Part shown: positions 28,634 to 39,925 of the stretch, in pieces
Layout: every line of letters begins with the position of its first letter
Position numbering within the stretch: position 1 is the first letter of the stretch
DNA from: an uncultured Bacteroidales bacterium
GTDB lineage: Bacteria > Bacteroidota > Bacteroidia > Bacteroidales > Paludibacteraceae
Direction: 5' to 3'
Assembly (NCBI GenBank): GCA_902778935.1
Contig: CACYZT010000006.1
Location: 62,001-126,000 of the forward strand
DNA length: 64,000 bases
The notes under the pieces: model-generated
The model's database searches: none
Told to the model about the DNA's origin: nothing
The model's input: only the letters and a program-made list of their open reading frames with translations
Program-made: the position numbers and the translations under genes

Positions 28634-28707
28634 GGCCCCGTAGCTCAATTGAATAGAGTGTCAGATTCCGGTTCTGAAGGTTCTGGGTTTGAGCCCCAGC
28701 GGGGTCA
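28634..28707 (+). tRNA. tRNA-Arg (anticodon CCG)
   Basis: The cloverleaf is complete: acceptor ggccccg / cggggtc, D arm gctc...gagt, anticodon stem tcaga / tctga with loop ttccggt, T arm ctggg-tttgagc-cccag. The discriminator is A, and CCA is not encoded. The last 13 nt, plus one more, recur twice downstream. Confidence 0.92.
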
Positions 28708-28818
28708 CAGAGCAGAAGCTCGCACCGCAGGTGCAAATTAGTAAATTTGCCCAGCGGGGTCACAGAGCAGAAGCTCGCACCGCAGGTGCAAATTAGTCAA
28801 TTTGCCCAGCGGGGTCAC
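28695..28818 (+). repeat. 55-bp tandem repeat containing the tRNA-Arg 3' end
   Basis: cccagcggggtcac occurs at 28695, 28750 and 28805, exactly 55 bp apart, so the tRNA 3' end is present three times. The 41-bp spacer is the same in both units except one base. It consists of three small perfect hairpins: gagc-agaa-gctc, gcacc-gca-ggtgc and caaatt-agta-aatttg (agtc in unit 2). The pattern looks like stacked integration (att) scars. Confidence 0.8.
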
Positions 28819-35357: not shown

Positions 35358-36590
35358 TTACGATTGGCGTGTGAGGATGGAACTGTCTCCATAGGAGAGA
35401 AAACGGAAATCATGGCTCAGGGCGTAGTCGTATATCTTTTTCCAGTCGCCATTTACAAATGCGCTGACCAATAGTAAGAGAGTGGACTGCGGTTGATGGA
35501 AATTGGTAATCAACTGGTCCACTATCCGGAACTGATATCCGGGTTTAATCATGATTTGCGTCTCAGCGTGGAGTGTCTCTTGTCCTGTTGAGTCAAGATA
35601 ATCCACTATAGCCTGCAGAGCATCCTTGGCTTCAAGCGACTGACTGCCGGCGATTGGTTCATAGGGCTCGAACTGGTCAATATGCAGGTTGTCTATGGTC
35701 CATTGTCCGTTTTGTTTTTGGGCAAGGGCAAGCCGTCTGCCGATGAAATAAAGACTCTCCAGCGTTCTCATGCTGGTAGTCCCGACAGCCACAATCTTGC
35801 CAAGTTTCCGAATAATATGCTCTATGGCGCTTTTCGGAACAGCGATGATCTCGGTGTGCATGGTGTGCTCGTTGGCATCGGCTGTCTTGACGGGAAGGAA
35901 TGTACCTGCACCTACATGAAGCGTTACCTCATCGGTTTCGATTCCTCTTGACCGAAGTCCGTCAAGTACCGTATCCGTAAAATGCAGCCCTGCCGTCGGT
36001 GCAGCTACCGAACCTTTGATACGCGAATAGACCGTTTGGTAGGTTGTCTTATCGCTCTCTTCGGTCTTACGATTCAAGTAAGGCGGTATAGGCAGTTCGC
36101 CTGCCGCATCCAATATCTCTGCGAAAGAGATATTCTCTCCGTCCCAATCGAAGCGCACGGCAAAGGTATTGCCTATCACTTGCTCTTTATGGGCGCGGAG
36201 TGTGAATTGTCCGGCTTGGAGTTCCACTGCCTCATCGTGCCATTTCTTGGCATTTCCCACCATGCATTTCCATGTACAGCTGGTGGTGGAACCAAGCGAA
36301 AGTTGGTAATCGTGTGGCATGAGCGGTTCGAGGCAGAAAACCTCAATGCGTGCGCCCGTCGGTTTGTGAAACTCCAGACGCGCCTGAATCACGCGCGTAT
36401 TATTATATATGAGGAGTGAGGAGGGAACGATGTAATCGCCGACGTTGTAAAATCGGTCTTCACTCACTTGCCCGTTGCGATAGATCAGCAGTTTGCTATG
36501 GTCGCGTTCAGCCAATGGATACTTGGCTATCCGCTCGTCCGGTAATGGGTAATTGTAATCAGCTATGTAAATGGGTTGCACGTTTTCCAT
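35358..36590 (-). CDS. queA: S-adenosylmethionine:tRNA ribosyltransferase-isomerase
   Basis: It makes the epoxyqueuosine precursor on tRNA. The 410 residues begin Y-I-A-D-Y-N-Y-P-L-P-D-E-R-I-A, and carry A-A-P-T-A-G-L-H-F near 195-203, L-H-V-G-A-G-T-F near 224 and the C-terminal T-N-F-H-Q-P-Q-S-T-L-L block. The length is longer than the Escherichia coli enzyme but common in Bacteroidetes. The first 32 bp overlap the end of the upstream methyltransferase gene, indicating one operon. Confidence 0.93.
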   Translation of the reverse strand: MENVQPIYIADYNYPLPDERIAKYPLAERDHSKLLIYRNGQVSEDRFYNVGDYIVPSSLLIYNNTRVIQARLEFHKPTGARIEVFCLEPLMPHDYQLSLGSTTSCTWKCMVGNAKKWHDEAVELQAGQFTLRAHKEQVIGNTFAVRFDWDGENISFAEILDAAGELPIPPYLNRKTEESDKTTYQTVYSRIKGSVAAPTAGLHFTDTVLDGLRSRGIETDEVTLHVGAGTFLPVKTADANEHTMHTEIIAVPKSAIEHIIRKLGKIVAVGTTSMRTLESLYFIGRRLALAQKQNGQWTIDNLHIDQFEPYEPIAGSQSLEAKDALQAIVDYLDSTGQETLHAETQIMIKPGYQFRIVDQLITNFHQPQSTLLLLVSAFVNGDWKKIYDYALSHDFRFLSYGDSSILTRQS

Positions 36591-37725
36591 TGAAGAGTTC
36601 GTATTTGTTGAACTGACAATCCAGTTCGCCGTTCAGCAGTCTGAGTTTCGCGGTTGGTTTAAGACCAATACACTTCATTGCGGTTTCGTTGGAAGAGATA
36701 ATCCACGCCGTGGCACCGGCAAACTGATGCTTGAGAGTTGTACCGATGGAACTATATAAATCCTCCATCTCTTTGTTGCTCTTCAGTCGCTCGCCATACG
36801 GCGGGTTTAGCATGACTAAAGCGTTGGTGTCGGCTATTGGCTTGAGTTCTTCTATTCGGATCTGCTTCAGTTCAATATCCTTCTGTACGCCGGCTGACTT
36901 GATATTCTTTGCCGCTTGCTGAATGGCATAGAATGAAGCATCCGAACCATAAATTGTATGTTCAAACTCGCGTTCTTGCGAATCGTCATTGTAGATGTCG
37001 CTCCACAAATCTGAATCGAAGTCCGGCCATTGCTCAAATGCAAAGGACTGACGGAATACTCCGGGAGCAATGTTTCGCGCTATGAGTGCGGCTTCTATCA
37101 GCAGCGTACCTGAACCGCACATAGGGTCGTAGAAATCACTCTGTCCTTTCCATCCTGCCAGCAGCAACATACCCGCAGCCAGGACTTCGTTAATCGGTGC
37201 TTCCGTCGTAGCCACGCGGTAACCGCGTTTGTGCAAACTCTCGCCGGAGGAATCCAACGAAAGTGTTACCTGCTCCTTGGCAATATGGATATTAAACAGC
37301 AAATCCGGTGTCTGGGTGCTCACGTTCGGTCGTTTGTGCGCGTTCTCGACCCAATAATCGGCAATCGCATCTTTAGCGCGATAGGTCACGAACCGGCTAT
37401 TACGGAATGCATCGCTGTAAACGGTAGCATCAATAGCGAAGGTGCTATCCACCTTCATGTATTGCGACCAATCCAACCGGCGTAGCTGTTGATAGAGTTC
37501 GTCCGTATCTTTGGCTTTGAAACTCACAATCGGTACCAAGATACGAATGGCGGTTCTCAGGCAGAAGTTCGCGCGGTACAGAAGTGCCTTGTCGCCACGG
37601 AAGGACACAGCCCTTCTCTCGAGCTGCACATCGTTGGCTCCAAGTTCTATCAACTCTTGCGCTAAAACCTCTTCCAAGCCCTTAAACGTCTTCGCTAACA
37701 TCAAAAAAGTGGCCGGTTGCTTCAT
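36559..37725 (-). CDS. THUMP-domain rRNA (guanine-N2)-methyltransferase
   Basis: Residues 1-160 hold a ferredoxin-like plus THUMP RNA-binding part (A-K-T-F-K-G-L-E-E-V-L-A-Q-E-L start). Residues 160-385 form a Rossmann methyltransferase with S-D-F-Y-D-P-M-C-G-S-G-T and the catalytic N-P-P-Y-G-E-R near 308. It matches the RlmL N-terminal/YpsC group that methylates 23S rRNA. A tRNA-Ser promoter faces away from it on the plus strand. Its end overlaps queA. Confidence 0.88.
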   Translation of the reverse strand: MKQPATFLMLAKTFKGLEEVLAQELIELGANDVQLERRAVSFRGDKALLYRANFCLRTAIRILVPIVSFKAKDTDELYQQLRRLDWSQYMKVDSTFAIDATVYSDAFRNSRFVTYRAKDAIADYWVENAHKRPNVSTQTPDLLFNIHIAKEQVTLSLDSSGESLHKRGYRVATTEAPINEVLAAGMLLLAGWKGQSDFYDPMCGSGTLLIEAALIARNIAPGVFRQSFAFEQWPDFDSDLWSDIYNDDSQEREFEHTIYGSDASFYAIQQAAKNIKSAGVQKDIELKQIRIEELKPIADTNALVMLNPPYGERLKSNKEMEDLYSSIGTTLKHQFAGATAWIISSNETAMKCIGLKPTAKLRLLNGELDCQFNKYELFNGKRATHLHS

Positions 37726-38750
37726 TTTTTTATCTTTTTATTTGTGTATGTCAATTTTTTGTAGTACCTTTGCACCCGCTTTTGAGGAAAGATGGCAGAG
37801 TGGTCTATTGCGTCGGTCTTGAAAACCGAAGTACTGAAAGGTACCGGGGGTTCGAATCCCTCTCTTTGGAACGGGAATGAGCCGATGAGGTTGCCGTCGC
37901 AGAAAAAGTCGATGGTATAGAACCCTTTCTGGACTGTTTGTCCTTCGTCCAGCGGGCAGTAACATACGCCTTCGAACGCCTCGCCGCTGTACTCAATCTC
38001 TTGCATCATCGAGTAGGGAATTTCTCCGCTCTCGAAGGCGAACAGTTTGCTCTCGCTCTCACCCATGATGTTTCCTTCCGGTGTGATTACGCGCGCATAG
38101 AGGTTTTTCAATCCCGGTGTGCAAGTGATGTTTTTCGCAATCACATAGTTGAATTGAAGTTTCCGAATACTGCTTGCCATCTTCGTTTTGCGGTCGTTTT
38201 TATTGAGCGTGGTAAGCGTACATGCACTAACCTCAAGCATGGAAGCACGCGTTACGGTCTCTGTTAACTGAGCGTTGGCTGTGGACAATTGTGTATTCTG
38301 CTCTTTGAATTGTTTGTTCTGAGCGCGATATTGCTGGTTCTCTTCGGTCAGTCGGGCATTGGTTGCGTTGAGGCTGTCTATTTGACGCACATAGTCTTTC
38401 ATGACGGCACGAACGGTAGCCAACTCTTTTTTCAGTTCCGCTATACGGCGGGCATTGGAGGCTTTGGTCTGGCGCAATTCCTCTAACAAGTCCTGCACGC
38501 GTTGTTGCTCACGGCTCAACAGGTCCTGCAGACTGTCATTGCGAATATCCATCTGCTGGTAACCATCGAACTGAATAGCCAGGTCTTCGTACTCTTCCTG
38601 CAGTTCTTCTTTCTCAATGGTCATCTGTTCTACCAGTTCATTCAACTCCTGACGCTGGCTAAGATTCCACCATACGAGTCCGCCGATAATCACCATCATT
38701 AAAGCGATGACCAGCCAAATCCAAGTATTATTTTTCTTTTGCTCTTCCAT
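37722..38750 (-). CDS. Membrane-anchored coiled-coil protein, 3' end lost into tRNA-Ser
   Basis: One N-terminal helix (W-I-W-L-V-I-A-L-M-M-V-I-I-G near 10-28) is followed by a coiled coil rich in Glu, Gln and Leu at 30-165, then a beta-rich domain at 170-295 (C-T-L-T-T-L-N-K-N-D-R-K; A-R-V-I-T-P-E-G-N; I-D-F-F-C-D-G-N-L-I-G). From residue 296 on, the frame is antisense to tRNA-Ser and its promoter, so the true C-terminus has been lost. The real part is about 37868-38750. Homologous proteins usually end a few residues after the D-G-N-L-I-G segment (from memory). Confidence 0.7.
   Translation of the reverse strand: MEEQKKNNTWIWLVIALMMVIIGGLVWWNLSQRQELNELVEQMTIEKEELQEEYEDLAIQFDGYQQMDIRNDSLQDLLSREQQRVQDLLEELRQTKASNARRIAELKKELATVRAVMKDYVRQIDSLNATNARLTEENQQYRAQNKQFKEQNTQLSTANAQLTETVTRASMLEVSACTLTTLNKNDRKTKMASSIRKLQFNYVIAKNITCTPGLKNLYARVITPEGNIMGESESKLFAFESGEIPYSMMQEIEYSGEAFEGVCYCPLDEGQTVQKGFYTIDFFCDGNLIGSFPFQREGFEPPVPFSTSVFKTDAIDHSAIFPQKRVQRYYKKLTYTNKKIKK
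37742..37772 (+). promoter_or_regulatory. Promoter of tRNA-Ser(TGA)
   Basis: TTG at 37742-37744 and TACCTTTG at 37765-37772 with a 20-nt spacer, 13 bp before the tRNA. Confidence 0.75.
37786..37870 (+). tRNA. tRNA-Ser (anticodon TGA) with damaged acceptor 3' end
   Basis: Everything up to the T arm is normal: anticodon arm tcggt-cttgaaa-accga, a long variable arm, and a ttcgaat T loop. The 5' acceptor strand is ggaaaga, but the 3' strand reads tctttgg instead of tctttcc. Pairs 1-72 and 2-71 are therefore G-G clashes. The sequence runs straight into the 3' end of the opposite-strand coding region. Confidence 0.75.
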
Positions 38751-39925
38751 TACAATAAGGGTATTACTTTTTCCAATTGATTACTTCTGCTGCCTTTGAG
38801 TAGAATGGAATAACCGCTTAACGGCTCTTTCTGCAAGTAGGCACACAATGCCTCTACGTTCTCAAAAACAGGATATGGAGCAGTTGTTTGTTTATATTCC
38901 TCTCCGACCAGCAGCACTTTGTCCGCCTTGCGCTCCAAGAGCATATTAACGATATTCTGATGCTCCAGTCGGCTGTATTCACCTAACTCACGCATAGCAC
39001 CGAGGATGTAGCATTGGCCGTTAGCCGTTGGCCGTTGGCTATTAGCAAAGGCATTGATGGCTGCAGTCATAGATGTCGGGTTGGCATTGTAAGCATCGAC
39101 GATGACGGTATTACGCTCGGTCTGCATGAGCTGCGAGCGGTTGTTGGTAGGAACATAAGCACGAATGGCTTCCAATGCCTGCTCGCGAGAGATACCAAAA
39201 TAGGCACCTACACAAATAGCCGCGGACACATTCTCTGCGTTGTAACCGCCTACCAGATGCGTACCTTCCGGCAGCGTGCCTGTCGTATATTCCACGGTCT
39301 TCAGATCGGCTGCCATTTTCGTCAAGTACGGGTTGTCTATATTGCGAAAACAGAACCCTCCGTGCGCACGGAGAAAATCATACAATTCCGCTTTGGTCTT
39401 TTGTACACCATCAAAGGAGCCGAAACCCTCCAAGTGCGCTTTGCCCACATTGGTAATAAGTCCGCATGTCGGTTCGGCTATCTCCACCAGCTCTTTGATG
39501 TCACCCGGATGGCTTGCTCCCATCTCAATGATGGCTACTTCGTGCGCGCGCGTGATAGATAATAAGGTGAGGGGTACGCCGAGTTGGTTATTCAGATTAC
39601 CCTGGGTATAGCAAACGTTAAATCGCTTGCTGAGCACCGCTGCCGTCAGTTCCTTGGTGGTGGTTTTTCCGTTCGTACCCGTAATGGCTATAACGGGAAT
39701 ATCGAGTTGTCTGCGCCAAGCGCGCGCCAAATCCTGCAGTTCTTGTAAAGCATTCTCGCCTTTGATGATATAGGCAGCCCCGTCACGCTCCGCTTGTTCC
39801 ACGAAGTCGTTTCCGTCAAAATGCTCTCCCTTCAACGCCACAAATATACAGCCGGGAGTTACCTTCCGGCTGTCTGTGGTGACATGTAAGGATTCTTTAT
39901 TTTTTATTAGGAAGCTCCAGTCCAT
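38750..39925 (-). CDS. murF: UDP-N-acetylmuramoyl-tripeptide--D-alanyl-D-alanine ligase
   Basis: It adds D-Ala-D-Ala to the peptidoglycan precursor. The 391 residues contain the ATP site I-T-G-T-N-G-K-T-T-T near 81-90, T-N-V-G-K-A-H near 158 and N-A-N-P-T-S-M near 277. It is shorter than the usual 430-450 residues. A degenerate DNA repeat (about 39012-39050, gttggcc/gttagcc units) encodes an inserted N-S-Q-R-P-T-A-N-G-Q loop near 293-302. Its start overlaps the end of the MFS gene by 29 bp. Confidence 0.93.
   Translation of the reverse strand: MDWSFLIKNKESLHVTTDSRKVTPGCIFVALKGEHFDGNDFVEQAERDGAAYIIKGENALQELQDLARAWRRQLDIPVIAITGTNGKTTTKELTAAVLSKRFNVCYTQGNLNNQLGVPLTLLSITRAHEVAIIEMGASHPGDIKELVEIAEPTCGLITNVGKAHLEGFGSFDGVQKTKAELYDFLRAHGGFCFRNIDNPYLTKMAADLKTVEYTTGTLPEGTHLVGGYNAENVSAAICVGAYFGISREQALEAIRAYVPTNNRSQLMQTERNTVIVDAYNANPTSMTAAINAFANSQRPTANGQCYILGAMRELGEYSRLEHQNIVNMLLERKADKVLLVGEEYKQTTAPYPVFENVEALCAYLQKEPLSGYSILLKGSRSNQLEKVIPLL

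Follow-up and report, generated by a model that had tools for sequence, protein, structure and literature searches.

In a 64,000-nucleotide stretch of DNA from an uncultured Bacteroidales bacterium of the Paludibacteraceae (assembly GCA_902778935.1, contig CACYZT010000006.1, positions 62,001-126,000; hereafter the window, numbered from its first letter), a gene for the serine transfer RNA that reads UCA codons, tRNA-Ser(UGA), written tRNA-Ser(TGA) in DNA, abuts a protein-coding gene on the opposite strand in such a way that neither has its usual end. The locus thus poses the question of whether the bacterium carries a damaged tRNA, a peculiar arrangement that works, or neither, the junction being a product of assembly. 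Comparison with related genomes leads us to lean, with moderate confidence, towards a local deletion that is real and recent and has probably not been fixed.

The acceptor end of the tRNA gene

The tRNA gene lies on the forward strand at 37786-37870, as delimited by ARAGORN, and displays the hallmarks of its type, namely the UGA anticodon and a long variable arm. Its acceptor strands read GGAAAGA on the 5' side and TCTTTGG on the 3' side, the next base being A (37870). Both ARAGORN and a separate pairing check bear out the clash from which the original prediction set out: G faces G at pairs 1-72 and 2-71, and the remaining five acceptor pairs form. Positions 71-73 are G, G and A in the window and C, C and G in relatives. 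Against the intact relative L045 the differences are confined to these three positions, and the predicted folding energy is 6.7 kcal/mol weaker (-21.9 vs -28.6 kcal/mol).

These positions bear on serine identity. As given in excerpts of one study (PMC9976931), the bacterial serine acceptor determinants are G73, C72, G2-C71 and R4-Y69, and the G1-C72 and G2-C71 pairs are absolutely conserved in Escherichia coli and in most tRNA-Ser of bacteria. Of the determinants so listed, three out of four are missing here, and among the features expected of a functional bacterial tRNA-Ser the gene lacks G1-C72, G2-C71 and the discriminator G73. From the loss of G73, C72 and the G2-C71 pair we infer that the tRNA as assembled would be defective. 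Within its own genome it stands nearly alone: 30 of 32 distinct tRNA genes (39 matches listed) form seven of seven acceptor pairs under a scoring that picked the best end offset for each tRNA and is therefore biased towards pairing, and the only other exception is a tRNA-Met with a mismatch at 1-72.

The opposite-strand protein and its foreign tail

The minus-strand open reading frame (ORF) at 37722-38750 encodes 342 residues, of which the first 295 codons (37866-38750) constitute the native part of an uncharacterised protein recognised through its homologues. The remaining 47 codons and the stop (37722-37865) cross the tRNA and its promoter in antisense and are absent from the homologues read. 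The protein has matches in 57 of the 61 genomes searched, some of which cover the antisense tRNA stretch alone, and its homologues in the same genus stop three codons past query residue 295. Among 76 named loci from related genomes, 71 show the protein ending three residues past this point, usually as SFPFQ-[LIV]KK followed by a stop codon; none of these 71 readable, related C-termini bears the tail. The other five comprise a locus of the isolate RUG281 (L129), which begins at the break codon, and four distant ones (L201-L204) that end differently. The claim that the protein loses its normal end and runs on for 47 antisense codons is thereby upheld, as is the placing of the breakpoint at 37867/37868, with an ambiguity of the one or two bases that are common to both flanks.

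These comparisons also dispose of a conserved fusion of tRNA and protein. The original prediction had named homologues sharing both the tail and the TCTTTGG end as what would argue for such an arrangement, and no homologue of this kind was found in the loci read; a search of 178 genomes of the genus recovered the exact GG end once, in the window's own genome.

The junction compared with gene order in relatives

At the junction (37866-37869) tRNA position 70 is joined directly to the SFPFQ codons, and relatives carry 38-342 bp more. The yardstick for this figure is a set of 14 relatives in which the tRNA has the same orientation as in the window: they have 43-347 nt between SFPFQ and a set position in the T-arm, against 5 nt in the window, which implies a deletion of 38-342 bp and also means that the length of the spacer varies greatly in any case. 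The window lacks C71, C72 and G73 of the tRNA, the spacer and the terminator-like hairpins within it, and the protein gene's stop and the three codons before it.

Uncultured Bacteroidales and Paludibacteraceae make up the nearest named relatives; many come from samples of the rumen or of other parts of the ruminant gut. A murF gene precedes the protein gene in 72 of the 76 loci. In 24 of them tRNA-Ser(TGA) lies between the protein gene (within about 340 bp) and rlmL; it faces the protein in 14, which is the window's orientation, and is reversed in 10. These 24 loci all lie within L130-L191. The tRNA end reads TCTTTCCGC in every one of the 24, and the intact end CTCTCTTTCCGC is likewise found in 24 of 24. 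This synteny indicates that the gene order of the window is old and that the two sides of the breakpoint belong together. Since 14 of the 76 loci agree with the window in order and orientation and hold 38-342 bp of extra sequence, the difference is best described as a local loss of adjoining sequences.

The original prediction had left a deletion, an inversion and a mis-join side by side, and the synteny separates them: a local deletion, or an assembly that skipped the same stretch, survives the comparison. An inversion breakpoint or a joining of distant sequences is scarcely credible, for 14 named loci have the order murF-protein-tRNA-rlmL, oriented as in the window, and agree with it on both flanks. 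What speaks for inversion is the reversed tRNA in 10 of the 24 tRNA-bearing loci, from which it follows that a small segment has been inverted within the genus.

The intact end is the rule well beyond the named loci. The exact CCGC end occurs in 128 of the 178 genus genomes; the remaining 50, which were read only in part, carry variant bases or lack an assembled copy. Counting the window, 30 tRNA-Ser(TGA) loci were read, and all 29 others have CC followed by GC. The 88 nt comprising the tRNA body and leader up to the break are identical, 88 of 88, in six other genomes, which argues that nothing else in the window tRNA has decayed.

Partial copies of the tRNA 3' end beside the gene

The spacer that the window lacks is a place where pieces of the tRNA recur. 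Exact copies of at least 11 nt of the tRNA 3' end occur within 400 bp downstream at 13 of the 30 tRNA-Ser(TGA) loci. Six of the 14 same-orientation relatives (L131, L135, L138, L149, L161 and L173) carry a partial second copy of the 3' end; in L131, L138, L149 and L173 it lies 0-5 nt past the stop codon of the protein, and in L135 and L161 such copies stand in tandem. Direct repeats favour deletions. Here they fall short of explaining the exact junction, at which the xKK-stop codons too have been lost.

Before the event, the order would have been the one that relatives still show: the protein gene, a spacer that bore terminator-like hairpins and frequently a partially copied tRNA 3' end, the tRNA facing the protein, and rlmL. 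A deletion would then have taken out the spacer and cut into both genes, costing the protein its stop and three final codons and the tRNA its three 3'-terminal bases. As the tRNA so assembled is probably defective, the cells concerned would either keep an intact copy that escaped assembly or carry the deletion in part of the population. The shared gene order, the intact relatives, the uniqueness of the junction among 178 genomes and the recurring partial 3' copies all support this account of a local deletion. So do the 88 nt that are unchanged in other genomes and a join on no more than one or two shared bases.

Three points weigh against it. The window has no remnant of a downstream copy of the tRNA 3' end (at least 11 nt exact, within 400 bp). 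A clean recombination between the tRNA end and a downstream copy, which we considered as its mechanism, would have kept the xKK-stop codons that are lost here, so that such copies could be a predisposing cause only. Finally, the fixed loss of a single-copy UCA decoder should not survive, and is unlikely unless a copy went unassembled.

The possibility of an assembly artefact

The junction may instead exist in no cell, the assembler, scaffolder or gap filling having skipped a repeat-bearing spacer. We regard this as a substantial possibility, if a less probable one. In its favour, the rest of the tRNA is undecayed, and the lesion would cripple a tRNA that is apparently single-copy. The isolate RUG281 offers a further hint: no other named relative has so similar a protein (83%; DNA identity 77% over 1.8 kb aligned), and its contig (ONGK01000012.1; G003:C56 in our numbering) starts at exactly the codon at which the window breaks. 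A search of the RUG281 assembly found no tRNA-Ser(TGA) beyond scraps of the T-arm, and its rlmL sits elsewhere, on contig G003:C24. The contig start and the missing tRNA suggest that the spot is awkward in that genome too. We also observed, without a formal count, that some contigs end near tRNA-Ser(TGA); G073:C10, for example, begins at the end of the tRNA.

Other observations fit a skipped spacer poorly. The window is otherwise clean, with 94% of it in ORFs of at least 100 residues, and the tRNA and spacer were assembled without trouble in 24 of the 76 named loci. Moreover, the flanks share just one or two bases, and the usual short-read assemblers join on k-mers longer than that.

Decoding of UCA codons

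UCA codons are in regular use around the lesion: the window has 79 of them (4.0 per 1000 codons), distributed over 34 of its 57 ORFs of at least 100 residues. The proposal that the cell, if the lesion is real, depends on another tRNA for these codons found no support in the assembly (2.18 Mb in 41 contigs, 90.2% complete), where no second tRNA-Ser(TGA) is present. The alternative offered with it, editing of the acceptor, is likewise unsupported. The use of UCA, the missing second copy and the 88 nt that are identical elsewhere together mean that the lesion is either very recent or artefactual.

A lesion that is real, fixed and tolerated is accordingly very improbable in our estimate. The tRNA would have to work with two G.G oppositions, have its 3' end edited or rebuilt, or be backed by an unassembled second gene. 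The incompleteness of the assembly leaves some room for the last of these, and two intact-end copies do occur, but in just 2 of the 128 genomes with that end. Against tolerance stand the lack of a second copy in the assembly and of the GG end in any of the relatives read, and acceptor editing of such a kind is not known in bacteria. The lost C72, G2-C71 and G73 are, moreover, the very determinants of serine identity in bacteria named in the excerpts of PMC9976931. If the arrangement did work, it would break the rules of serine tRNA identity. The evidence, however, points to damage or artefact, so that the tRNA should not be annotated as functional, and the length of 342 residues should not be taken at face value.

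Neighbouring genes

Next to the tRNA is rlmL (36559-37725, minus strand), a gene for an RlmL-type rRNA methyltransferase identified through Pfam. On the other side lies a Mur ligase gene (38750-39925, minus strand), likewise identified through Pfam and assigned to murF by its place and domains. The uncharacterised protein between them looks, by eye, hydrophobic near its N-terminus and coiled-coil-like over a long middle part; it matched no Pfam family. The -7 promoter element of Bacteroidetes has the consensus TAnnTTTG, and a similar element, TACCTTTG, is found upstream of the tRNA on the forward strand (37765-37772). Similar promoter stretches recur many times elsewhere in the genome.

A split T-arm repeat that trails tRNA and tmRNA genes

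Copies of tRNA 3' ends are part of a wider pattern in the genus. The motif CGATTATTGC(N1-16)GCAAT occurs nine times in the window's own genome; at eight of these sites a same-strand tRNA precedes it by no more than about 200 bp. Across seven genomes of the genus it was found 22 times, in six of the seven; 17 of the 21 distinct contexts place it 20-230 bp behind a same-strand tRNA, and four do not. Four genomes of other families yielded none. A longer form ending in TTTTCGA is present in 18 of 35 genus genomes and in none of 165 genomes from 32 other genera of the family.

Each unit reads as a copy of the gene's own T-arm and of the 3' strand of its acceptor, into whose T-loop about 40 nt that form two hairpins have been inserted. 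Of 31 places, 30 loci were examined, and at 24 of these the unit stands 20-429 bp behind a tRNA of the same strand. Of these tRNA-linked units, 14 carry the 3' end of their own tRNA at 19 of 21 positions or better, and the other 10 match it at 13-17 of 21. Two of the six units not linked to a tRNA follow a transfer-messenger RNA (tmRNA) gene (L291 and L292) and carry the tmRNA 3' end. Judged by a simple stem-and-loop rule, 29 of the 30 units have a T-arm in the 300 nt before them; of 1500 positions drawn at random from these loci, 171 do. At the gathering threshold, comparison of the units with Rfam gave tRNA and tmRNA matches alone (7 + 5 = 12 loci), and we recognised no description of the trailing repeat in the open-licence PubMed Central full texts searched. 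In a consensus fold of 33 units the helix is invariant, which is mostly forced by the search motif, and the fold is thus no evidence of covariation.

Units of this kind are found in L236-L286 (e.g., L238, L246, L263 and L273). Three further loci, L287 (near 18,900), L290 (near 6,700) and L293 (near 12,300), show a tRNA-like 3' end and a good T-arm where ARAGORN recognises no 5' half and calls no gene; standing next to trailing units, these may be displaced fragments, or broken or interrupted tRNA genes.

The types of 3' end are not always distributed alike. For tRNA-Ala(GGC), the gene in genome G000 (L238) is of one type, the first unit behind it is of the other type and the next is of its own, and genome G190 (L286) has the reverse; tRNA-Arg(CCU) shows a similar swap of types between L261 and L280. 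These differences between species suggest that active genes and trailing units have traded 3' ends. Mobility, exchange and a function of the repeat are conceivable. One could go further and suppose that this genus-specific repeat exchanges 3' ends with active genes and that the window tRNA marks an exchange or excision that failed; we consider this idea unlikely.

Elsewhere in the window, tRNA-Arg(CCG) (28634-28708) is followed by a 55-bp tandem array of 2.3 copies (28695-28818), in which the last 14 nt of the tRNA recur twice, each unit starting with them. The hairpin motif has no exact match in the window, this array included.

Comparison with known systems

In E. coli the tandem repeats at tyrT contain a copy of the tRNA 3' end. 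The RtT RNA of E. coli features in excerpts of one study (PMC4986893). The tyrT repeats have a counterpart here in the 55-bp array (28695-28818), likewise a set of repeats behind a tRNA that includes its 3' end. The split T-arm units differ from tyrT/RtT in having no Rfam match beyond tRNA and tmRNA at the 12 loci and in bearing their hairpins inside the T-loop copy. With the genomic islands of the Islander database, as outlined in part of its description (PMC4383910), they share the intact tRNA or tmRNA gene with a displaced same-strand copy of its 3' end downstream. Unlike in those islands, they lie 20-429 bp behind the tRNA at 24 of 30 loci, a spacing too short to leave room for an integrase gene between tRNA and unit, although no integrase profile search was run. 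The PINSR element of Prevotella intermedia is also a small intergenic repeat confined to one sublineage of Bacteroidales; according to the excerpts of its description (PMC4755523), it measures 188 bp and has 177-184 copies per genome, and those excerpts mention no link to tRNA.

With its link to tRNA and tmRNA T-arms and its occurrence in one of the 33 genera searched in the family, the split T-arm repeat could represent a new route to the duplication, swap or loss of 3' ends. It deserves a study of its own and matters more than the lesion. The lesion, be it a deletion or an assembly skip, is as a feature ordinary damage, with no function of its own. Small deletions that truncate tRNA genes and local mis-assemblies in metagenome-assembled genomes are both familiar, and the present case resembles them in that one gene end is lost, the neighbouring gene reads through and relatives show no trace of the event. 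It differs from them in nothing fundamental, apart from the fact that partial copies of the tRNA 3' end abound at sites of the window's type.
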